Below are positions 1 through 15,792 of a stretch of 64,000 nucleotides of DNA, piece by piece. Both the position numbers and the translations under genes were made by a program. The DNA lies in assembly GCA_012034575.1 (NCBI GenBank), contig JAAUPF010000004.1, positions 1 through 64,000 of the forward strand, read 5' to 3'. Origin of the DNA: Richelia sp. CSU_2_1 (lineage in GTDB: Bacteria > Cyanobacteriota > Cyanobacteriia > Cyanobacteriales > Microcoleaceae). The notes under the pieces are model-generated. The model did no database searches. It worked only from the letters and a program-made list of their open reading frames with translations, and was not told the DNA's origin. Position 1 is the stretch's first letter. Every line of letters starts with the position of its first letter.

Positions 1-82
1 AAAAGGCGATGAAATTCCTTACTTGTCGTTGCGCTTCGGGTGGTAGTGCGAAGAATTCATCTAACAATTCTTGCTGAGTCAT
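1..82 (-). CDS. DUF2281-like small protein, N-terminal part
   Basis: The window edge cuts this gene. The visible N-terminus begins MTQQELLDEFFALPPEAQ and continues QVRNFIAF, which resembles the 'L..LPPE.Q.EV.DF..FL' start of DUF2281-type small proteins, often antitoxin-like partners. The ATG lies 24 bp downstream of the hsdS stop on the same strand, so it probably belongs to the end of the same type I restriction-modification operon. The family call rests on about 27 residues only; function is unknown. Confidence 0.5.
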   Translation of the reverse strand, partial: MTQQELLDEFFALPPEAQRQVRNFIAF

Positions 83-1383: not shown

Positions 1384-3091
1384 ATGACTCTTCACCCGCG
1401 CTCCTTGTCATCGATTCCAGAAATGACAGCAACTGTGGCACGAACCTCATTTCCTAAAGGAAATCCATATATGAAAATGCGGGACGAATTAGGAGTGTTG
1501 TACGAGGATACTGACTTTATTACCTTGTTTCGAGCCGATTGCGGTCAAAGTGCTTTATCGCCTGGGCAATTAGCATTAATCAGCGTGATGCAATTTGCAG
1601 AGGGATTGACCGATCGACAAGCAGCAGAAGCGGTCAGAAGTCGTATAGATTGGAAGTATGCTTTAGGACTAGAAATTACTGATAGCGGCTTTGATTATTC
1701 AGTTTTAAGCGAGTGGAGAAGTCGGTTAATTGCTGCGGGACGTGAAAGTCAATTACTCGATAAAATGCTAGCACATTTTCAAGAGAAGGGATGGCTCAAA
1801 GCTAGGGGGAAAGCCAGAACTGACTCGACCCATGTCATCGGAGCCATCCGTAAAATGAACCGTCTAGAATGCGTTGGAGAAACTTTACGTCATGCCTTAA
1901 ATCAGCTAGCTACTGTGGCGGATGAATGGTTATTAACAGTAGTAGATCGAGATTGGTCTGAGCGTTATAGTATCAGATTTGAGCAGTATCGCTTGCCAAA
2001 ATCTGAAACCGAAAAACAAAAGTTGCTATTGACTATTGGCTGTGATGGTCATCATTTGTTATCAGCTTTATACGACGATTCATTGAGCCCTCAATGGTTG
2101 CGCCAGCTTAAAGCTGTAGAAATTCTACGCTGTGTCTGGATACAACAATATGGGGTGTCTGAAGGCAAAATTTATTGGCGAGAAGCCGACGATCTACCGC
2201 CTCACAAGCAGTTAATTACCTCACCTTACGATACTGAGGCTCGCAATCGCACAAAAAGAGATACCAATTGGACGGGTTATATAGTACATCTTACAGAAAC
2301 TTGCGATCGAGATTTACCTCATTTAATTACCAATGTGGAAACGACACCTGCAAGCATTGGAGATGTCGAAATGACTCAGGTGATTCATCAATCCTTAGCC
2401 GATAAACACCTGTTACCACAAGAACATCTTGTCGATACTGCTTATGTGGATGCCCAACACTTACTCACAAGTGAAATAGAATTAGGTATCGATCTCGTTG
2501 GTCGAACCCCATCTGACTCTAGCTGGCAAGAAAAAGCGCAGCAAGGCTTCGATCTTTCTTGTTTTGCGATTGATTGGGAGCATCAGCAGGCTATTTGTCC
2601 GCAAGGTAACGCCAGCAAATCCTGGCACCAACGCTCGGATAATTATGGCAATCCGACCATTCAAGTGCGATGAAAGTCGGCCCGATTGTGCTGCTTGTCC
2701 TGTTCGTTCTCAATGTACCCATTCGCCTGCCCAGGCCCGTGTTTTGACTCTGAGACCTCAACCTCTTTATGAGGCTTTAGCCAAGGGTAGGGCTAGACAA
2801 CATACCGAGGATTTTAAGCAGCGTTATGCCCTACGGGCTGGTGTTGAAAGTTCCTTGTCGCAAGGAATTAGTGTTTTCGGTTTGCGTGAGGCTCGTTACA
2901 TTGGTCTTGCTAAGACTCGTCTACAACATATTGTGACTGCTGCTGCAATGAATCTGTCAAGAATGTGGGCGTTTTGGCGCAACATTCCGATTGGCTTGAC
3001 TCGTGTATCTCGTTTTGCGGCTCTTTTTCCCTCTGCCTCATCAGAGTTTTTTTTCCCAATCTTGGGATGTTTGGTTTCACCCTTTTTTTAA
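1384..3091 (+). pseudogene. IS1182-family DDE transposase, frameshifted
   Basis: The first frame (1384-2673, 429 residues) matches the IS1182 N-terminus: 'KGNPYMKMRDELG', 'LALISVMQFAEGLTDRQAA', 'DSTHV', 'VETTPASIGDVEM' and 'DTAYVDAQHL'. It stops at TGA 2671. The rest of the protein continues in another frame to 3091: 'CAACPVRSQCT', 'RAGVESSLSQGI' and 'TRLQHIVTAAAMNLSR', the usual C-terminal signature. Comparing the frames around 'PTIQVR / DESRPDC' suggests an indel near 2665-2675. No A6/A7 slippery run is present there, so programmed frameshifting is unlikely and the copy is probably dead in cis. The start at 1384 gives the family-typical opening MTLHPRSL. Confidence 0.85.
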
Positions 3092-3107: not shown

Positions 3108-3204
3108 TTCAACCGCCCGCCAATGATGCGGCTTCGATCGCAATGACACAATAAACAATTAATTATTGTCAAGACGCTCACTAATGCGGTTTCAACCGCC
3201 CGCC
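3108..3204. repeat. Short dispersed repeat copies between IS and hsdM
   Basis: The sequence TTCAACCGCCCGCC occurs at 3108-3121 and again at 3191-3204, each beside a TGCGG(T/C)TTC stretch, so this gap is two copies of a small GCGGTT/AACCGC repeat. A related palindrome, GCGGTTGAAACCGC, lies at 11736. The right end of the IS lies in or at the edge of one copy. Confidence 0.55.
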
Positions 3205-4100
3205 TAATCACCCACAAATCCCAACTCTTCCAAATAACTCCCCATCTTAATTTTAACTTCCACCAACTCTTTTTCCAACCTCTCAATCTCCGCCTGCACC
3301 GCCCCAATATCGATTTCCTCCTCCTCCTCAAACGTATCCACATATCGCGAAATATTCAGATTAAAATCATTCTCTTTAATCTCCTCAAAACTCGCCAAAT
3401 ACGCATACTTCTCCACCGTCTCCCGCCGCCGATATGCCCCCACAATCTTCGCAATATCTTGCTCCCGCAAATTGTTCTGCGTCTTCACATCCGCATAATC
3501 CCGACTGCCATCAATAAATAATACCGAATTATCCGATTTATTCCGTTTAAACAACAAAATTGCCGCCGGAATTCCCGTGCCAAAAAACAAATTGCTCGGC
3601 AATCCTACCACCGCATCTAACAAATTTTCCTCAATCAATTGCTGCCTAATTTTCCCCTCGCTACTGCCCCGAAATAACACCCCATGCGGCACGACTACAG
3701 CAACTCGCCCGCCTGTTAAACTCATCGTTTCGATCGTGTGACAAATAAAAGCAAAATCCCCCTTGCCCTTCGGTGGAATCCCCCGCCCAAACCGCTTAAA
3801 ACGGTCAGATCCCACATCATCTGCCCCCCATTTATCCAAACTAAAAGGAGGATTCGCTACCACCACCTCAAACCGCATCAACTTATCATTTTCCAACAAT
3901 TTCGGATTGCGAATCGTATCGCCCCACTCAATTCGCGCCCCATCTACCCCGTGCAAAAACATATTCATCTTGGCTAAAGCCCAAGTTCCGCCCGTATTTT
4001 CCTGCCCGTATAAACTATAATCATTACTGCCCCATTGCTAACAAGTTAAAAAGAAGTATATTTTGTCAATACCTCTTTAGATATAAAAAACATATTTAAG

Positions 4101-4175: not shown

Positions 4176-4327
4176 ACCATAGTCACGGGCGATCGATAAC
4201 AGTTACGGGCGATCGATAACAGTTACGGGCAAACGCCAAGCCCAGGAGTCCCTTGATAGTTAAGAGCCTTGGTATTATCAAACTATATAATAGACAAATA
4301 ATTGAGCGATGGTGTAGGTTAATAAAT

Positions 4328-5038
4328 ATGGGTGCCAGTCGAAAAACCAACCGATCCCACGCTAAAAAAACCACAAAACCGATGGTGGAAGATGAGGAGA
4401 TCGCCTCGCAACTATCAGCATTGTTAACACCCGCCATCACCTCACAAGAAAATTACTACCGTCAACTGGGTATGCGAGGGAGAATCCTTAACCTACCGTT
4501 GATGGTAGCAGCAGTATTAACTTTGCTGTGGCGAGAGGTGGCTGGAGTGACAGAGCTCACAAGAATGCTGGCAAGAGAAGGTTTTTTGTGGTGCCGACCC
4601 ACGACAGTCACTCAACAAGCAATGTCTCAAAGGTTTTTAAGTTTTCCCGCCACATTATTTGAGGGAGTCTTCAAGAATTTATTACCGAGTTTAAGAACCG
4701 CTTGGTATCAGAGAAACCAACGACCCCTACCAGAAAGCATTCAATTTGCCTTGAGAAAATTTTCGAGAGTTTGGATAGTAGATAGTTCAACACTCGAAGC
4801 ATTATTTTGCAAGCTCAAAAGCCTCGAAGATATACCTAAAGGGCAGTTGGCAGGGAAAATGGCAACAGTTATAGATTTAATGACCAGGCTCCCTGTTGAT
4901 ATTTGGTTTCAGGAAAATCCGAGAGCTTCGGATGTTAATTTTGAAGAAAATATCCTGCAATTAGTGCCAGCTCAAACCTTACTCTTACTAGATAGAGGAT
5001 TTTGCTGCGCCCGAAAATCGAGATTTAGGTATTATTAA
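4328..5038 (+). pseudogene. IS4-family transposase, C-terminally truncated
   Basis: The start is set at ATG 4328 (MGASRKTNRSHAKK). The protein has the first DDE residue in 'VDSSTLEAL' and the second in 'LLLDRGF', then leaves the family pattern (CCARKSRFRYY) and stops at 5038. The YREK block with the catalytic Glu is absent. A second frame opens at the break and runs 'ENRDLGIIKSQRKPN' to a stop inside the right inverted repeat; it is probably what remains of the C-terminus after an internal deletion. Not expected to be catalytically active. Confidence 0.8.
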
Positions 5039-5971
5039 ATCTCAACGAAAACCCAACGTTAAGTTAATTGTGGCACCTTTCCCCGAACGACAGCGAGGGT
5101 CTGACTGCTTTTTCTTTGAAGCATCTTCTGAAATACCCTTGACAATTGCCATCCAAGCTTAACTTGTTACCAATGTTACTGCCCTGCCGCCGCACGTAAT
5201 TCGCACATTTAATTAACAGCGAACCCGATCCGCAAGTCGGATCGCAAATCCTTTCCCCCGGCTGCGGCGCAACTAATTCCGCCATCAATTCCGACACTTC
5301 CGAAGGCGTATAAAATTCCCCCGCTTTCTTCCCCGCACCCGCTGCAAATTTGGCGATTAGGTACTCATAAGCATTGCCAATTACATCCAGATTCCCAATC
5401 CGCGAAGGACGTAAATCTAACTTCGGGTTGGCAAAATCTTCTAATAGCATTTTTAGGCGCGTATTGCGATCGCGACTTTGCCCCAAGTTCGCCTCGCTAT
5501 TAAAATCAATATTGCGAAATACTCCCGCCAGTTTCAGCTTATTCGCTTCTTCAATCTGTTCTAGGGCCTTGTTAATAATTTCGCCCAAATTGGTCTCATT
5601 TCGCTGTCGGTACAAATCATCAAAACTGCATCCCGGCGGCAATACAAACCTCTCCCGCGCCAACCGCCGCAAAATGCGTTCTTTGTCATCCCCATACTCT
5701 TTTTGCAGTTGTTCGTAATGTTCCGCCCACACATCGCTGACATACTTGACAAACAACATCACCAGCAAGTAGTTTTTATATTCACTCGCATCGATCGTAC
5801 CTCGAAACGTATCGCAAGCGCGCCAGAGAATATTATCGATTTCATCTTGACTGACAGGAAATAGGGGCAATGTATAATTATCCATAAATCGGGCGATCGA
5901 TCCCAAAAATGCAACCAGTTAACTTAACCATTTAACCAGAATTTGGAATGATTGAATTTTCAAATGAATTT

Positions 5972-7562: not shown

Positions 7563-8788
7563 TTAAAACTTCTGCCCGACAAAAACCGATCGCACGTCTC
7601 CGCCCTTGCGGATCACTGCTTCTTGATTTTTGATTTCTGCCAGAGTCCAGCCGCTGGCACCGATGCTTTCGCCCACATAAATTCTGCGAGCTACACCGTC
7701 GATTTCAAACAAAGCGGCCGATCGATCGCCCAACTCCAAAATCCCCACCAAAGTGTGGGCAGCAGTCGGAGCGGTGTTTGCAGCCGGTGCGGCGGGCTGC
7801 GGTGCTGCTTGCGGGGCCGATGGTGCCGGATCGGCAGCGGGTGCCTGTGCCGGCTCGGTTTCGCGAGCCAAAATCCTCGGTTGCGGGGCTTCTGATGTGG
7901 CAGGGGAAGCGGCAGCCGGGGAAGGGGCTTGAGTTCCAGCAGCGGCGAGCGCGCGGCCTGAGGCTTGGGCTGCGGGCGAGGGGGAAACAGAGGCAGTTTG
8001 AGCTGGAGTTGGAGCCTGGGCCGGAACCTGGGCCGGAGCCTGGGCCGGTGGCAGGATAACTACTTGCGGTGCTGGAGCACCGGGTTGAGCGGCGGCTTGT
8101 TCGATCGCCTCGGCGATCCGGTTAACAGCACTGGAAAGGCCGGCATTTGCTGGAGGCGCGCCGGAAATTGGAATGCTGGGCAGTGCTCCTGGGGCGGTGG
8201 CTCCGGGAACTCCGGGCAGTTGCGAGTTAGCTGGGGCCGGTTTTTTTGTTCGATCGCCTCTAGGGATCGCTGGATGTATTCGACAAACTCGGTATCTGGC
8301 TCTGTTTTGGCGGCTTCTGTGGTTGCGGAACCTGCGGGTGCGACTGCGGGCAAGCGGACGAGTCCCGATCGGCTTGCCAGCCACAGCCCCAACACCAGCA
8401 GCAGGGAGCCAAAAGCCGCTCCCAACAGCATTTTGTCGAAGGATTGTTTTGACTGGTGTTTTTTGGTAGTTTCGAGGGCGACTTGGCGGGCGATCGCTTC
8501 TACATCTTTGGCTGGGGCCGCTGGCAGTGCCGGCTGGGAGAGGACTATTTGAGGTACGGAGATCTGTTTGAGGGCGACGAATTCCGGATGCAATGGCTCG
8601 GCGAGCATTCCTCCGTTGTCGTCAAAAGCTCGATCGACCCCTGCAAACAGTTCGTCCATCAGCCGATCGGCGTAGGATTCTACTGCCACAGCTTCGACAG
8701 GTACTGCTTCAACAACGGTTGTGGTGGTGGCTGTCGGCTCTTCGGTTGTTTCCAAAGCCATTTGTTGGGCGGTTAAATTCTGAGGCAT
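7563..8788 (-). pseudogene. Single-pass membrane protein with PilP/GspC-like C-terminus, frameshifted
   Basis: Frame one (8788-8060) gives an acidic cytoplasmic segment and one membrane helix 'MLLGAAFGSLLLVLGLWLAS' at about residues 120-140. Frame two (to 7563) gives a long Ala/Pro-rich linker and a compact end 'VGILELGDRSAALFEIDG... VYVGESIG'-like (actual RIYVGESIGASGWTLAEI, then FVGQKF), the style of PilP/GspC periplasmic domains that bind secretin or pilus partners. The frames meet in an A7 run (8241-8247); one extra A would give one continuous protein of about 408 residues (E-Q-K-K-P-A-P). It is either a real one-base deletion, a sequencing error, or slippage. A link to type IV pili or secretion is inferred from domain layout; no pilus gene is adjacent. 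Confidence 0.65.
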
Positions 8789-9499
8789 AGTTTTTCCTGG
8801 TTGGCGCTGCTCGAAATTCCTGAGACTTTAATTTCCGACTTTTATAGGTAATTTTAAACTTTACCAATTCTGTCTCAAACAAGTGAATTTTAGATCGCTT
8901 ATAACAAAATTTTTAGTTAACGGCAAACCGATCGGGGTTTTGGCTCGTGTTTTTGGGGCTGGCTGAGTTTTCGGCTGCGATCTGGGCGATCGGTCTTATT
9001 TTGATGTATATGCAGATTTTGCGGTTTTTGTCAATGGTGTTGTGGGGTCGATCGGCTTTTTGAAACAAAACTTTATTTTACCGTTGCTGGTAATTTTGGA
9101 CTTCCCGGCTGTATTAACTGTTAATATTCAAAACAATAGCTAAAGCTTGACTTATCTGTTGCATAGATTCTGTTGCATAGATCCAAATTTCACCTCTACG
9201 CATACTCTCCATCATATTTTTTTAAAAGACGACAGATTTTTCGATCGACTTTTTTAATGTTACCAACCATATTTTAGCATCACTCTTGAAAAAACACCAC
9301 TAACTCACATTCCCGAAAGCACAGAACCCACTTTCACGAAACTAAAAATCTAATGTCAATCTCTAAACTGAGAGTAAAAACTCATTTCTCATTTTGTAGG
9401 AAGCTCTTACCCAAGGCTTAGCAAAACTTTTATGGATGCGATCGCGCACTGAGGCTTTACAATCTGTTTCATTTTTGAATTTAAATGCTTGGAAAATTG
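8789..9499. other. Intergenic region, AT-rich, no gene seen
   Basis: About 700 bp without a convincing coding frame on either strand. It separates the divergent PilP-like gene and the three-Cys gene. A short direct repeat CTGTTGCATAGA occurs twice around 9157-9182. Nothing else is recognised. Confidence 0.6.
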
Positions 9500-9528
9500 T
9501 TGACAAATTCTTCAATAAATCATACAAT
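9500..9528 (+). promoter_or_regulatory. Consensus sigma-70 type promoter of the three-Cys gene
   Basis: TTGACA (9500-9505), a 17-bp spacer and TACAAT (9523-9528) lie about 100 bp upstream of the ATG at 9631. This is a near-perfect -35/-10 arrangement, stronger than usual for cyanobacterial genes, and suggests constitutive expression. No transcript evidence is available. Confidence 0.6.
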
Positions 9529-9630
9529 TGAATTGTGGGTCAGACTGAAGCTTTCTCAAAAAATATATAAAACTGAGCAGTCCAGCGATCCCAAAAAGAT
9601 AATTTGTTGTTTCAGTGGTAAAGTCATTTT

Positions 9631-10419
9631 ATGGCTAGCATCAAAACAGGTATCGAATGGACCGATCGGACGTGGAATCCCACAACTGGCTGCGATAAAA
9701 TCAGTCCCGGCTGCACTCATTGTTATGCAGAAGCATTAACAAAGCGATTCCATACTAATTTTCCTCATGGGTTTACTTTAACAGAATACCAAGAACGTTT
9801 GAACGAACCTAAGCGTTGGCGACAACCCAGCCGAATTTTTGTTAACTCAATGAGCGATTTGTTTCATAAAGATGTTTCTCTGGAATTCTTGAAACAAGTT
9901 TTTGATGTAATGCGCGAAACCCCTCATCATATTTATCAAATTCTGACCAAGCGACACGAACGTTTACTAGAGTTAGCTCCTCAACTCGATTGGTCAGATA
10001 ATATTTGGATGGGGGTATCTGTGGAAAATCAAAACTACGTGCATCGTGTGGATTACTTGCGACAAGTGAATGCAAAGGTACGCTTTTTATCCTGCGAACC
10101 ACTTTTAGGGCCTTTGCAACTCGATTTAACAGATATTCACTGGGTAATTGTTGGGGGAGAATCGGGGCCAAAATACCGTCCGATACAGGAAGAATGGGTA
10201 AAAGATATTCGAGTTCAATGTCAGGATGCTGAAGTCGCGTTTTTTTTCAAGCAATGGGGAGGTAGAACACCTAAAGCTGCTGGGAGACTTTTGGATGGAA
10301 GAATTTGGGATGAGATGCCCGCAGCATGGGAGAAACACCAAAAACAATGGAATAGATATACTTTGAGTGTGAGTCGAAATTCAAATAAATTAGTAACGCC
10401 TACTTTAGTGGGAATGTAA
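9631..10419 (+). CDS. Phage Gp37/Gp68-type three-Cys-motif protein (DUF5131)
   Basis: A 262-residue protein of the Gp37/Gp68 family. Near the N-terminus it has the invariant 'GIEWTDRTWNPTTGC' followed by Cys21-x6-Cys28-x2-Cys31-Tyr, the three-cysteine cluster that resembles radical-SAM iron-sulfur sites. Further family signatures are 'IFVNSMSDLFH', 'YQILTKR', 'WMGVSVENQ', 'FLSCEPLLGPL' and 'VIVGGESG'. The family is known from phages and as the standard neighbour of TcmP proteins; its reaction is not established to my knowledge. Here TcmP lies tail to tail with a 20-bp 3' overlap, so the two are co-inherited but transcribed separately. A strong promoter precedes it. A role in nucleic-acid modification or phage conflict is inference. 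Confidence 0.85.
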   Translation: MASIKTGIEWTDRTWNPTTGCDKISPGCTHCYAEALTKRFHTNFPHGFTLTEYQERLNEPKRWRQPSRIFVNSMSDLFHKDVSLEFLKQVFDVMRETPHHIYQILTKRHERLLELAPQLDWSDNIWMGVSVENQNYVHRVDYLRQVNAKVRFLSCEPLLGPLQLDLTDIHWVIVGGESGPKYRPIQEEWVKDIRVQCQDAEVAFFFKQWGGRTPKAAGRLLDGRIWDEMPAAWEKHQKQWNRYTLSVSRNSNKLVTPTLVGM

Positions 10420-11557
10420 CTCTCACCTTGTCCCCAAATGTAATTTCTCCTTTGTTCTTTTTTCGCCCAGTAGCAGGTGGCTCAGCTATGATTTTACCTT
10501 GTTGTTCTAGTTTCCGCAGAGCTTCCTTGTAATTTTTACTAATATAACGCTTACCAACATGATGCTGATTATAAATTTCTTTCATTGTCAGTGTTTGACC
10601 CGCAAATTCATCAAGTAGCATATTTTCGAGTTCATCAGGTGGTTTAATATCAAATAGCGAAAGCTGTATTGCAGGCGCAGGGTTGTACTCAAAAGAGGGG
10701 ACACCTCGATCGAAAATAGAGCTTTTTTTAGCCATAATATCTTTAATAATAGAATGACCTCGTGAATTCTTAGATACAAATATTAGATAATGGCTAGTCC
10801 GACTACCGCTAGCATTTTTGAAGCAAAAATCTTGAACGTGCGACCCTCCAACATCTTTCAATGCCTGACAAATAGCTTCTATGATAGTTGATTCTCGTTC
10901 TTCAGGCTGCATAGGTTTAAGTTCTTCTCTCAGCGTATCTGCTCGTTCTTTTCCGAAAAGAGAGTTCATGTGTTCTTTGACAATTGGGTTATTTAAACCC
11001 ATGTTAATACGGTTATAATTAAAGAAAAATATACAATCACAACCCCAACCTTTAATTAATGCTCTAATTAGTGAAAGAGACAATCCTTTATAACCCCAAG
11101 GATCTATAAAAAACAGTGTAGGAACTTTATTGATAATGGGTTGAAGTGCTTGAAAAATTTCTTCTCCAACTTCCTTATTTAAGATTATTGGCTGATAGCT
11201 CAATCTACTTATATCTGGAATAAATTCTATAGCCTGTTGGAGAGACTGAGTATTATTTAAATCTTTATCATTAAACAGCGTTACTAGCATTTCTGACATA
11301 TCTATATCTGCAATCGCACGTTCCAAAATAAGTAGTGGAGTAGACTTAGAACCGTCTTGATAGCTACCCGGTCCAGAAAATAAATCAACGTATGCAATTT
11401 TACTGTCTTTTTTGGGTGATTTTTTATTGTCATTTTCTTTCGCTTTTTTGAGTGTGTTTATCATTATTTTTGCCCAAGACCAAAAGTATTTAGCAACTAT
11501 TTCGGATTTTACTAAAGAATTATCTTTGGACTCATCAAAGAAAGAACTGTCAGCCAT
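10400..11557 (-). CDS. tcmP: Three-Cys-motif partner protein TcmP
   Basis: About 385 residues. The N-terminal half shows 'SEIVAKYFWSWAKIM', then 'YVDLFSGPGSY', a methyltransferase-like motif I, and 'TLFFIDPWGYKGLS', a motif IV-like D-P-W-G. The C-terminus is a winged-helix-like segment ('MKEIYNQHHVGKRYISKNYKEAL'-type; key residues K, R, Y) followed by a basic stretch. These are the hallmarks of the TcmP (TIGR04474) family, which is found beside Gp37/Gp68 three-Cys proteins, exactly as here. The start is placed at ATG 11557 (MADSSFF) because GAGG lies 8 nt upstream; an in-frame start at 11653 lacks this. Biochemical function unknown; probably nucleic-acid or nucleotide modification. Confidence 0.85.
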   Translation of the reverse strand: MADSSFFDESKDNSLVKSEIVAKYFWSWAKIMINTLKKAKENDNKKSPKKDSKIAYVDLFSGPGSYQDGSKSTPLLILERAIADIDMSEMLVTLFNDKDLNNTQSLQQAIEFIPDISRLSYQPIILNKEVGEEIFQALQPIINKVPTLFFIDPWGYKGLSLSLIRALIKGWGCDCIFFFNYNRINMGLNNPIVKEHMNSLFGKERADTLREELKPMQPEERESTIIEAICQALKDVGGSHVQDFCFKNASGSRTSHYLIFVSKNSRGHSIIKDIMAKKSSIFDRGVPSFEYNPAPAIQLSLFDIKPPDELENMLLDEFAGQTLTMKEIYNQHHVGKRYISKNYKEALRKLEQQGKIIAEPPATGRKKNKGEITFGDKVRVTFPLK

Positions 11558-11605
11558 CCCTGTTACCTCTACATTCTCGATCGTGAATCTGCATACTGAT
11601 GGATA

Positions 11606-11614
11606 ATTGTACCA
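11606..11614 (-). promoter_or_regulatory. Extended -10 promoter candidate for tcmP
   Basis: On the minus strand TGGTACAAT (TG-N-TACAAT) lies about 45 nt before the ATG at 11557. This fits an extended -10 element. No good -35 box is seen at the right distance, so this promoter looks weaker than that of the partner gene. Confidence 0.4.
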
Positions 11615-11653
11615 TATTATCTGTCCAGGAGTCTCGATCGCAAACATAATCAT

Positions 11654-11844
11654 CTTTACTCGTCATAAAGTGCGATCGAACTATCCAAATCTAGTGTATA
11701 GATAACAATAGATTCGATAAGTCCTCATTATGACTCGGCGGTTGAAACCGCGTCTACACAAGCAAAGTCCGCCTACGCGGACTAAGAAAATAACAGGAAT
11801 CTTAAAGCCGGATTTGCTATCAACTATCAACTATCAACTATCAA
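11654..11844. other. Intergenic gap with GCGGTTGAAACCGC palindrome
   Basis: It contains a small palindrome GCGGTTGAAACCGC near 11736, a GTCCGCCTACGCGGAC palindrome near 11770 and a heptamer repeat (ctatcaa) run at 11818-11845. No coding frame is convincing. Confidence 0.6.
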
Positions 11845-14800
11845 CTATTTTCCATATCCTCCACCCCCCGGAGTTTCAATGACAAACACATCTCCCGGCT
11901 GCATTTCCACACTCGCCGTACTCCCCAATTCCTCAATTTTTCCCCCAACTCTTTCCACATAATTCCGCCCAACTTTCCCCGCTTCACCTCCTTGTAAACC
12001 GCAGGGAAAAACAACCCGTCTTCCTGACAAAATACCCGCCGCCATCGTTTTTAAAAACCGGATTTTCCGCACCACTCCATTACCGCCGCGATGCTGTCCG
12101 TTACCCCCGCTATTTTCGCGAATGGCAAAACTTTCTAACAACACCGGAAACCGCCATTCCAACACTTCTGGATCGGTTAAACGCGAATTTGTCATGTGAG
12201 TTTGCACCGCATCTGTACCGTCAAAATCCACGCCCGCACCGGAACCGCCGCAAATTGTTTCATAATATTGATAGCGATCGTTTCCAAAGGTAAAATTGTT
12301 CATTGTTCCCTGAGAAGCTGCCATTACTCCCAAGGCACAATACAAAGCATCGGTTATATTCTGCGAAGTTTCTACATTGCCTGCAACTACCGCCGCCGGA
12401 TAGCAAGGATTCAACATACAGCCTTCGGGATTGATGATTTCGAGAGGTTTCAAGCAGCCCGCATTCAAAGGAATATCGTCATCTACTAAGGTGCGGAAAA
12501 CGTACAAAACTGCTGCTTTGCACACTGCTGCGGGAGCGTTGAAATTGTTGTTTTGTTGCAATGAAGTGCCAGTAAAATCTATTTTCGCACTGCGCGCGGA
12601 TTTGTCAATAGTAATGGTTACTTTAATTTGTCCGCCGCTATCCATTTGATAGGTAAATTCGCCATCTTTTAAAACATCAATTACTCGCCTTACCGATTCC
12701 TCAGCGTTGTCTTGCACGAAGCCCATATAAGTTTGTACTGTTTCTAAACCGTAATGTTCTACCATTTTCAGAAGTTCTTCGGCACCGCGTTTGTTGGCGG
12801 CAATTTGTGCTTGCAAATCGGCGATGTTTTGGACGAGATTGCGTGTGGGAAAATCGCCCGATCTGAGAATTTCTAGCAATTCTGGTTCTTGGAATTTGCC
12901 TTCGCTTACTAGCTGGAAATTGTCGAGCAATATGCCTTCTTCGGTTACTGTTTTACTGTTGGGAGGCATGGAACCGGGAGTGATGCCGCCGATGTCGGCA
13001 TGGTGTCCTCGCGATGCTAGGTAGAAAAGAGGGGCTGAAGTCCCTACTACGAACTTATTTTCGGTGGAAAATACTGGGGTGATGACGGTGATATCGGGTA
13101 AGTGCGTGCCGCCGTTGTAGGGATTGTTGGAAACGTAAACATCGCCTGGTTTAATTGTATCGCCTTTGGCTTTAATTAAGGCAGTAACGCTTTCACTCAT
13201 GGAACCTAAATGCACGGGAATGTGCGGGGCGTTGGCAACTAATTGTCCGTTTTTGTCGAAAATTGCGCAGGAAAAGTCGAGGCGTTCTTTGATGTTAACT
13301 GATGAACTGGTATTTTGTAATGTTACTCCCATTTGTTCCGCGATCGCCCGAAATAAGTTATTAAATATTTCTAGGAATACTGGATCGGATGCAACCGCAG
13401 ATTTGGCAGATGAACGGGGATTAACGCTGATTTTTGTAACCGCAGATTTGGCGGATGAACGCGGATGAACGCTGATTTGATCTGTGTCGATCTTTGCGTG
13501 CTGCAGATTTAATATTAGATTGTTATTGGCGGTGATTGTTGCTTCCCATCCGGGTTCGATTATATTAGTTCCAGTTGTTTCAACAATTATTGCCGGGCCG
13601 CTGATGCAGTCGTTCGATCGCAAATTCTCTCTTTGATAAACTGGCGTTTCCCGCCACTCGCCCGCAACATACATTTGCACTGTAGAAATTGCCTGCAAGG
13701 GCAAATTTTCCCTGTCGCTAACTGGAGGAATTATCGCAGTATCTGGTAAATCCATTCTCTCTACAACTTCTACCGAAACTGCTTCCACAATTAGTGCTTT
13801 TTCCGGCATGATAAAACTGTAACGCTGTTGGTGCGCTACTTCAAAATCAGCTTGCATCTTTTCAATGCTTTCAGCAAAATTTACAAGTAAAATCGAGTCG
13901 CTTCCCTGATATTTTAAATGCACCTTGCAAATCACTCTAACCTCTGTTGCTTCTCTCTCTGCGCCCTCTGCGCCTCTGCGGTTCAATTCCCTCTTTCCTT
14001 CTGTTTCCAATTGCGCTAAAATATTATGCAAATCCCGAATTAATTCAGCAGTTAATAATTGCTCGATCGCCCTTTCGCGAATTGCCCGCACGTCAGCTAA
14101 ACCCATACCGTAAGCTGACAAAACACCCGCATACGGATGAATAAATACTCGTTTCATTCCCAAAGAATTTGCGATCGCGCAAGCGTGCTGTCCCCCCGCA
14201 CCACCAAAACAACATAAGGTGTATTCTGAAACATCATAACCGCGTTGCAGCGAGATTTTTTTCACCGCATTTGCCATCTTTTCCACCGCGATCGCCAAAA
14301 AACCCTCCGCTACTTGTTCGGGAGTCTTATCGCCTCCAATTTCCCCCGCTAATTGCACGAATTTTTGCCTTACTATGTCGGGGTCGATCGGCAAATTTCC
14401 CTCCAATCCAAACACTTTTGGAAACAATTCGGGTTGAATTTTTCCCAACATCACATTGCAATCTGTCACCGTTAAAGGGCCACCTTTGCGATAGCAAGCC
14501 GGCCCCGGATTCGCCCCTGCAGATTCTGGCCCGACGCGGTAGCGAGTACCGTCAAAAAATACGATCGAACCGCCACCGGCTGCTACAGTATGAATTGCCA
14601 TTACGGGCGATCGTAATCTTACCCCCGCAATTTCTGTCTCGAATTCGCGTTCGTATTCGCCGTTGAAATGCGCGACATCTGTGGAAGTTCCACCCATATC
14701 AAAGGTGATGATTTTGTCAAAACCTGCCTGTTTGCTAGTTTGAACTGCACCGACAATTCCCCCAGCCGGACCGGATAAAATACTGTTTTTTCCTTGAAAT

Positions 14801-15792
14801 TGCGCTGCTTCTACCAACCCACCATTCGATTGCATAAACATTAATTTGGGGAATGGGGAATTGGGAATGGAGAATTGGGAATTGGGCATCGATAATTCCC
14901 GATTTGCTTCGTTGTTTGCAAGTACATCGGGTAGACTCGAAGAGGGCGGGCACGGGGACACCGCCCCTACGGATAATTGACTGGTTACTTGTTCGACATT
15001 TTCCTCGTTGTTTGGAGGTGCATCGGGCGGGTTTAAAGAGGGCGGGCACGGGGGCACCGCCCCTACGGATAATTGATTGGTTACTTGTTCGACATAGTGG
15101 CGCAAAATAGGGGATAAATAAGCATCGACAACCGCAGTGTCTCCCCGCGAAACTAATTTCATCAGCGGGCTGACTTCGTGGGATACTGATATTTGAGTAA
15201 AGCCAATTTCCCTCGCTATTTTAGCAACTTGTTGTTCGTGTTCCGAGTAGCGGTAGCCGTGCATGAATGCGATCGCGCAACTCCGAATTCCCTCGTCGTA
15301 AGCTTGTTGTAAAGATGGGATAAAATCGAGATTGACAGGAATTAATTCTTCCCCTGTCGCACTGTACCGTTCCGTAACTTCGATCGCGCGATCGTACAGC
15401 ATTTCTGGTAAAATAATATGGCGGGCAAAGATATTCGGACGATTTTGATAGCCAATTCTCAAAGCATCGCGAAAACCTTTAGTAATTAGTAAAACAGTTC
15501 GATCGCCCTTGCGTTCTAATAAAGCATTTGTTGCTACCGTCGTCCCCATTTTAATTGCTGCAATTTGACTGGCGGGTATGGTAACATCGGCGGGAATTCC
15601 TAAAATATCGCGAATTCCTTGAACTGCTGCATCGGTGTATCGATCGGGATTTTCTGACAGCAATTTGTGAACCGTTAAATTACCATCGGGGTCTTTAGCA
15701 ACAATATCAGTAAAAGTGCCGCCGCGATCGATCCAAAATTGCCAGCCCCGAAATTGCCAGCCAGGGCGATCGGTAAAATTAGCATTCATCAT
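11845..15792 (-). CDS. 5-oxoprolinase / hydantoinase HyuA-HyuB fusion
   Basis: A 1315-residue ATP-dependent 5-oxoprolinase-type enzyme, which opens 5-oxoproline to glutamate (or a related hydantoin). The N-terminal HyuA half has '[13 protein letters not shown]', '[15 protein letters not shown]', '[10 protein letters not shown]', 'GPAGGIVGA' and '[11 protein letters not shown]'. The C-terminal HyuB half has '[14 protein letters not shown]', '[11 protein letters not shown]', '[20 protein letters not shown]' and the terminal 'PGGGGYG'. Catalytic residues look intact. It is somewhat longer than usual because of in-frame inserts derived from intergenic repeats (about residues 232-302, 600-618, 766-803 and a short one before ASRGHH). 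It is transcribed alone. The substrate could be another lactam. Confidence 0.9.
13031..13054. repeat. Dispersed repeat piece inside the oxoprolinase gene
   Basis: The bases AAGTCCCTACTACGAAC here match 17 bp of an intergenic palindrome copy at about 26046-26064. Within the gene they are translated as FVVGTSAP just before the conserved [11 protein letters not shown] block. Confidence 0.6.
13391..13480. repeat. AACCGCAGATTTGGC(G/A)GATGAAC repeat inside the oxoprolinase gene
   Basis: Two tandem copies of a repeat based on AACCGCAGATTTGGC and GATGAACGC. The same words recur between genes at 61977-62042 and 63706-63795. In the gene they encode the paired peptides [13 protein letters not shown] and [13 protein letters not shown]. 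Confidence 0.75.
14910..15101. repeat. 96-bp tandem duplication inside the oxoprolinase gene
   Basis: Two direct copies with a 96-bp period (14910-15005 and 15006-15101) encode two 32-residue units that each begin VEQVT(N/S)QLSVGAV. They contain GGGGACACCGCCCCTACGG, a word of the intergenic repeat class. Beside them (14849-14886) is a gaattgg heptamer run encoding the peptide around [14 protein letters not shown]. Confidence 0.8.

Follow-up and report, generated by a model that had tools for sequence, protein, structure and literature searches.

A DUF5131-TcmP gene pair of Richelia sp. CSU_2_1 as a member of a widespread, probably nucleic-acid-modifying two-enzyme module

PADLOC-DB v2 lists, as candidate systems PDC-M30 and PDC-M41, a pair of neighbouring genes of the DUF5131 (Gp37/Gp68) and TcmP families, and these entries carry no description or mechanism. 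One such pair lies in the first 64,000 nucleotides of contig JAAUPF010000004.1 of the cyanobacterium Richelia sp. CSU_2_1 (the window). The DUF5131 gene (9631-10419, + strand, 262 aa) belongs to PF07505 (E 2.5e-100, 335.4 bits against a gathering cut-off of 28.9) and the TcmP gene (10400-11557, - strand, 385 aa from a conserved ATG) to TIGR04474 (E 2.4e-56, 191.6 bits against a cut-off of 53). Both match the PADLOC component models, DUF5131 those of PDC-M41B (E 2.3e-111) and PDC-M30B (E 4.9e-108) and TcmP those of PDC-M30A (E 4.2e-23) and PDC-M41A (E 2.9e-7). The module itself is thus not new, and the pair in the window is a further member of a listed, uncharacterised candidate system. Our analysis indicates that it joins a likely radical S-adenosylmethionine (SAM) enzyme to a likely methylating enzyme; since the two travel together and often lie near anti-phage genes, they probably form a nucleic-acid-modifying module.

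Prokaryotic viperins are radical-SAM enzymes in anti-phage defence, and they act on free nucleotides without a methyltransferase-like partner. In Mycobacterium tuberculosis, Rv2735c and Rv2734 are presumably TcmP and DUF5131, and BCG_2748c is presumably the counterpart of Rv2735c. Rv2735c is co-transcribed, at least in part, with recA-recX (PMC3062782) and belongs, like Rv2734, recX, and recA, to a mitomycin-responsive cluster (PMC5057432), and BCG_2748c is termed a three-Cys partner protein (PMC7387457). Two further papers list the Sinorhizobium meliloti TcmP gene SMa2243 beside the Hna defence gene in a table of expression data (PMC12445080) and predict PDC-M30 in 32 of 100 Pseudomonas aeruginosa strains, 68.8% of which are phage-resistant, the prevalence mark of that paper being at least 52.5% (PMC10855318). 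Some of these links point to conflict and others to DNA damage. No function assignment for TcmP or DUF5131 was found in a literature search in which the term TcmP is swamped by unrelated uses and which mostly did not extend to subscription papers.

DUF5131 and TcmP are paired beyond chance. Among the best 80 of at least 594 confirmed DUF5131 relatives in genome contigs, 68 have TcmP within 300 bp and one has a distant TcmP; the remaining 11 loci, some of them cut by contig ends, lack it. TcmP is also present in 34 of the best 80 DUF5131 loci in viral contigs (18 convergent, 10 with TcmP upstream of DUF5131, and 6 with DUF5131 upstream of TcmP). When TcmP is the starting point, 132 of 142 loci adjoin DUF5131 or a radical-SAM partner, which upholds the conserved two-gene module put forward in a first-pass annotation of the window. 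A partner stands beside 75 of the 80 cyanobacterial TcmP genes (57 DUF5131, 18 radical-SAM). The 36 loci from the cyanobacterial family, window included, comprise 23 with DUF5131, 9 with the radical-SAM gene, and 4 with neither, namely one truncated gene, two at contig ends, and one fragment; 44 further loci from a phylum sample comprise 34, 9, and 1, the last a sub-cut-off match. DUF5131 accompanies TcmP at 14 of 14 Mycobacterium loci, a partner is found at all 18 loci over the cut-off in a Pseudomonadota sample, and 25 of the 30 loci returned from a Bacteroidota sample have DUF5131 alongside. The Bacteroidota remainder consists of one fragment and four short, divergent TcmP-like genes (L415-L418) with no DUF5131 or radical-SAM partner within flanks of up to 1.5 kb, which may be a stand-alone TcmP subfamily. 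Both families are spread over many phyla and are also carried by phages (161 phage records contain DUF5131 relatives). Presence is patchy, with TcmP in 32 of 61 genomes of the cyanobacterial family and in 12 of the 60 from Mycobacterium. One Salinispora locus (L155) contains two copies of DUF5131 (1963-2724 and 7992-8747), roughly 6 kb from each other.

In TcmP, the FSGPG and IDPWG motifs are present in the - strand ORF (open reading frame), and a C-terminal GMT-wHTH winged-helix domain (PF22560, E 2.7e-19; residues 291-362, 10472-10687, - strand) follows, as it does in 29 of the 47 members of one set (A3). Among the papers listed under Gamma-Mobile-Trio as a reading of GMT, nothing on TcmP was found. 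The structure model (pLDDT, predicted local distance difference test, 92) matches class I methyltransferases in the PDB, namely Trm1, CmoA, RlmJ, METTL16, and MnmM, several of which act on RNA. The link to RlmJ, the N6-methyladenine (m6A2030) methyltransferase of 23S rRNA, also emerged from the Pseudomonadota search with TIGR04474, in which 12 extra sub-cut-off loci encode proteins that look like RlmJ by eye. Aligned by HHalign to these 12 RlmJ-like proteins, a broad TcmP profile reaches a probability of 97.1% (E 7.3e-11) and a score of 78.9, compared with 14.4 +- 2.4 (maximum 22.6) in 40 column shuffles. The register places TcmP Lys17 (11507-11509, - strand) on RlmJ K18 and Asp152 of IDPWG (11102-11104, - strand) on D164; the RlmJ N-terminal Tyr4/His6 tail lies outside the aligned range. 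Lys17 is invariant in 167 of 167 rows and Asp152 in 170 of 170, and K18A or D164A abolishes RlmJ activity (PMC3814359). By sequence comparison, TcmP is a homologue of RlmJ that shares its catalytic Lys and Asp, and it is likely an adenine-methylating enzyme; the methyltransferase likeness noted earlier can accordingly be narrowed to an RlmJ-like one. Unlike RlmJ, TcmP has the added C-terminal winged helix and DPWG in place of DPPY, its motif IV being mostly DP[FYW]G (P153 in 142 of 170 rows, F, Y, or W154 in 142 of 170, and G155 in 136 of 170).

The identity of DUF5131 is illuminated by the TcmP genes that lack it. Among the cyanobacterial TcmP loci, 23 have no DUF5131; 18 of these have a canonical radical-SAM protein with a GC-x3-C-x2-C motif beside TcmP and 5 have neither partner; broken loci include at least L105, L109, L450, and L452. 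The partner passes the Pfam Radical_SAM cut-off in L104 (44.5 against 29.5 bits), comes near the NCBIfam families PA0069 and Rv2578c under their cut-offs, and is clearly related to spore photoproduct lyase (SPL), a DNA-repair enzyme of the radical-SAM kind (HHalign 98.3%, E 1.3e-14). Short and long TcmP types each occur with either partner. In a quick TcmP tree of 110 of 155 non-redundant rows, 15 of which have the radical-SAM partner, the partner must have changed 4 times, compared with a mean of 14.3 after shuffling, and starred branches force 2 changes. More careful trees give 3 changes for the long TcmP clade with outgroups (19 rows), a number that is the same at 5% and 95% bootstrap marks and of which starred branches force 2, and 1 change for the short set (25 rows). 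The two partners were found together in the fetched stretch at none of the 16 radical-SAM loci found first. This partner swap is most simply read as DUF5131 and the radical-SAM enzyme having equivalent roles beside TcmP.

Two observations concern these partners themselves. In L099 (7182-9146), L101 (10628-12583), L103 (3047-5005), and L109 (733-2712), the radical-SAM ORF carries an intein-like insert at the third Cys of its motif, in the iron-sulfur loop, and therefore has an open frame of about 660 codons; in L099 and L101, a test for LAGLIDADG domains was positive. The Richelia genome holds a second, class-2 DUF5131 (L097, 4864-10256, contig C292) near ORFs that look Dam-like and Dcm-like by eye, and the same locus has a truncated ORF for a radical-SAM enzyme of the type that partners TcmP.

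DUF5131 carries the three cysteines that had been pointed out in the window, Cys21-x6-Cys28-x2-Cys31 (codons within 9691-9723, + strand), and these, together with S73, M74, D76, T106, K107, E156, E177, and K207, are invariant in all 195 rows of an alignment that includes the window and some near-duplicates. In the AlphaFold2 model (pLDDT 93), the Cys loop sits between strand 18-20 and helix 32-39, after the first strand of a partial TIM (triose-phosphate isomerase) barrel, the layout of a radical-SAM fold. SPL takes ranks 1-4, 6, and 8 in a Foldseek comparison of the model with the PDB (best E 3.2e-3). All 52 DUF5131 members searched match TIGR04471 (radical SAM mobile pair A) below its cut-off, the protein of the window scoring 84 bits against a cut-off of 355, and 12 of the 52 match TIGR04470; in the one member displayed, all such matches are sub-cut-off relatives. 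HHalign aligns DUF5131 with SPL co-linearly over TGC...C..CY/TGCMGHCHYCY, VNSMSD/AACTSD, LTK/VTK, and VSVEN/FSVNS with a score of 29.0, above all 60 single-column shuffles (maximum 23.6). With the radical-SAM partner of TcmP the score is 32.8, also above 60 shuffles (16.5 +- 3.5, maximum 29.1). The SPL structural matches, TIGR04471, the alignment to the radical-SAM partner, and the partner swaps together agree with the radical-SAM likeness proposed earlier, and DUF5131 is likely a divergent radical-SAM-like enzyme of the SPL superfamily whose CX6CX2C loop would be a putative 4Fe-4S site. TIGR03886, the SPL family, had no match in 19 relatives, an SPL search of viral contigs returned 1 locus, and single-protein sequence searches of the PDB with DUF5131 or TcmP were uninformative.

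The neighbourhood of the pair is richer in defence and mobile genes than same-contig controls. Twenty pair loci, from 20 of 30 genomes, were each compared with a control stretch of the same size on the same contig, at a distance of about 40-80 kb (193,518 bp in either set; 139 against 138 ORFs by a simple ORF rule). At 1e-10, 112 PADLOC models matched near the pairs and 11 in the controls; the counts are of overlapping models and not of proteins, with one control stretch per contig. The first 25 of 119 Pfam families near the pairs include resolvases, integrases, N6 methylases, IS21, and relaxase, whereas the first 25 of 188 in the controls are mostly transporters and metabolic enzymes. A Gordonia temperate phage has the pair between its integrase and immunity repressor, two plasmids have DNA methyltransferase, integrase, or transposase genes near it, and a DNA methyltransferase is annotated close by in 2 of the 4 annotated phage loci examined. 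No nuclease was seen to recur among the neighbours in the annotated or listed loci, among which no systematic nuclease search was made, and the module therefore does not look like a restriction-modification system.

Taken as a whole, DUF5131 and TcmP could be a mobile two-enzyme module for nucleobase modification, used in conflicts with phages and mobile elements, a reading whose chances of being right or wrong we judge to be about equal. What the data show directly is that the two genes are paired, that TcmP is a homologue of RlmJ and keeps its catalytic residues, that a true radical-SAM enzyme can stand in the place of DUF5131, that the module is patchily distributed and its cargo turns over, and that defence and mobile genes lie around it. 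We infer the following reaction and order of steps. TcmP would be SAM-dependent and methylate adenine at N6 using Lys17 and Asp152, and its winged-helix tail would help to find or hold the nucleic acid, RNA or DNA. The CX6CX2C loop of DUF5131 would hold a 4Fe-4S cluster and cleave a second SAM, and DUF5131, or its radical-SAM stand-in, would abstract a hydrogen atom from the nucleotide that TcmP methylates or from one beside it, so that joint action on one base might leave that base modified or repaired. The module would be an accessory, turning-over pair that hosts, plasmids, and temperate phages carry in their conflicts with phages and mobile DNA, where the modification may harm or silence invader nucleic acid or host RNA, or else protect the carrier. 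More tentatively, and with the balance somewhat against it, TcmP with an interchangeable radical-SAM enzyme, either the CX6CX2C DUF5131 or a CX3CX2C member of the SPL superfamily, could modify a base of phage or host nucleic acid in two steps, by a nuclease-free defence chemistry of a kind not seen before. The first-pass annotation had likewise suggested nucleic-acid or nucleotide modification, perhaps for anti-phage defence; the module, the radical-SAM-like and methyltransferase nature of the two proteins, and an excess of defence genes nearby are supported, whereas the weight put on the convergent overlap and a TcmP promoter are not. The RlmJ link, with two catalytic residues retained, and the exchange of partners make the function of DUF5131 and TcmP concretely testable.

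Several results weigh against this reading. The CX6CX2C spacing of DUF5131 differs from the canonical radical-SAM CX3CX2C. Its weak alignment to SPL sets the invariant Met74 (195 of 195 rows) at the position of the hydrogen-donor Cys of SPL, which precedes the TSD segment. No Foldseek match of DUF5131 in the PDB reaches E 0.001 (template modelling score, TM, 0.43-0.51), HHalign gives it a probability of 2.7-8.6% with SPL and 20% with the radical-SAM partner, the best of 60 block shuffles (32.4) beats the SPL score of 29.0, and a profile search of PDB sequences with DUF5131 yields no SPL. On the side of TcmP, motif IV is not the DPPY/F of RlmJ-type enzymes, and the best PDB sequence match of its profile is isocitrate dehydrogenase (E 0.002), with RlmJ next (0.07). 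DUF5131 is moreover found without TcmP in 46 of the best 80 viral loci, and five solitary DUF5131 genes from genomes without a TcmP match are under purifying selection (median ratio of nonsynonymous to synonymous substitution rates, dN/dS, 0.13 over 10 pairs). This resembles the paired copies (0.16 over 66 pairs; TcmP 0.20 over 55 pairs), and the idea that a solitary DUF5131 is a dying gene was therefore rejected.

The doubts about DUF5131 lead to an alternative in which it is no radical-SAM enzyme but a nucleotide enzyme with a TIM barrel, and its three cysteines hold zinc or a structural cluster. The non-canonical spacing, the weak sequence similarity to SPL, and the generic TIM barrels that also appear among the structural matches would fit, yet a canonical radical-SAM enzyme adjoins TcmP in 18 loci without DUF5131, TIGR04471 matches every member searched, and SPL ranks first among the structural matches, so that we hold this to be very improbable. 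That DUF5131 and TcmP serve DNA repair rather than defence, DUF5131 reversing a lesion or crosslink in the manner of SPL and TcmP methylating or recognising the lesion site, is the main rival, if an unlikely one. SPL is, in the predicted structure, the best match of DUF5131, and the recA and mitomycin links of Rv2735c, presumably a TcmP, fit repair as well. The patchy presence of TcmP, the defence and mobile neighbours, and the location in a temperate phage speak against repair, as does a motif search in which no RecA was found in the 14 mycobacterial loci with flanks of up to 1.5 kb.

In a further alternative, the module began as a self-protection device of phages or plasmids that marks the element's own DNA or an RNA, as an anti-restriction or RNA mark, and was later kept by hosts. 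This would account for the DUF5131 relatives in phage records and the many viral loci without TcmP, for the DNA methyltransferases annotated in half of the examined phage loci, and for the second DUF5131 copy near Dam- and Dcm-like ORFs. It sits less well with the excess of host-defence models over the controls and with the chromosomal hotspot copies, around which no prophage was noticed, though no prophage search was made, and it seems to us quite improbable.

Returning to the window, the stop codons of DUF5131 (10417-10419, + strand) and TcmP (10402-10400, - strand) place the genes tail to tail as first described, with 20 bp in common (10400-10419). Across the window and 12 further loci of the genus, 9 of the 13 pairs overlap by exactly 20 bp, and the others overlap by 17 or 26 bp or are separated by 65 or 73 bp. 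Such an overlap was rejected as the defining feature of the module and is a lineage-specific trait, one of four arrangements: the 68 genome-contig pairs comprise 25 convergent, 26 with TcmP upstream, 17 with DUF5131 upstream, and 0 divergent (43 codirectional), all 25 Bacteroidota pairs have TcmP upstream of DUF5131, and 12 of the 14 mycobacterial pairs are convergent and 2 divergent. The claim that each gene has its own promoter stood for DUF5131, which is preceded by TTGACA-17-TACAAT (9500-9528, + strand; 11 of 12 consensus positions), the pattern TTGAYA-17..19-TAYAAT recurring in 15 of 19 loci (exceptions L066, L067, L068, and L079). It was not confirmed for TcmP, whose longest ORF begins at 11653 and whose relatives start at the ATG at 11557. 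The best candidate matches 9 of 12 positions, and the 11 sites found are no better than the 8.1 +- 3.1 in shuffles; the upstream stretch in relatives is mostly the end of a same-strand neighbour gene (4 of 14 rows mis-picked), and a conserved TcmP promoter was thus rejected. A repeat-like stretch with a GTCCGC...GCGGAC hairpin (11730-11790) separates TcmP from the next gene; a CRISPR at 11761-11784 was rejected, as the Rfam CRISPR-DR28 match lies under the gathering score and is probably spurious.

To the left of the pair, the type I restriction-modification operon is indeed dead, with hsdM split in two (5064-5906 and 3204-3968) and an hsdS remnant (107-1183); transposase domains (1384-3091) and an ORF without Pfam match (4253-5038) lie among these genes. 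On the right, a hydantoinase/oxoprolinase-like gene, named by eye (11845-15792, - strand), has a DNA match in 53 of 61 family genomes and anchors a single chromosomal hotspot that the pair occupies in the genus. A ferredoxin-like/glucan-enzyme-like block (names by eye) forms the opposite anchor in the genomes that have one; the window and its closest relative, G031, lack it on that side. In G031 (L107 5528-8191, compared with 8501-12300 of the window), the flanks are 90.6-91.2% identical, the TcmP remnant is 77% identical, and DUF5131 is gone from the site, which suggests allele replacement or fast divergence of TcmP before its loss.

The cargo of the hotspot is variable. Besides DUF5131 with TcmP, it can consist of DUF5131 with a distant TcmP type (L062, L063), DUF5131 with an RNase H-family gene (L066, L068, L077), DUF5131 with two other genes, one of which has weak HEAT-repeat matches (L069, L076), or genes without DUF5131 (L276-L279, L281). 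The 156-aa RNase H-family protein replaces TcmP beside DUF5131 in L066 (7032-7517), L068 (7247-7732), and L077 (10072-10557) and is found alone in L278 (486-1010); PF00075 was tested in L119. RNase H usually has a catalytic Asp at a position where the hotspot protein has IYTHGL or IYTRGI.

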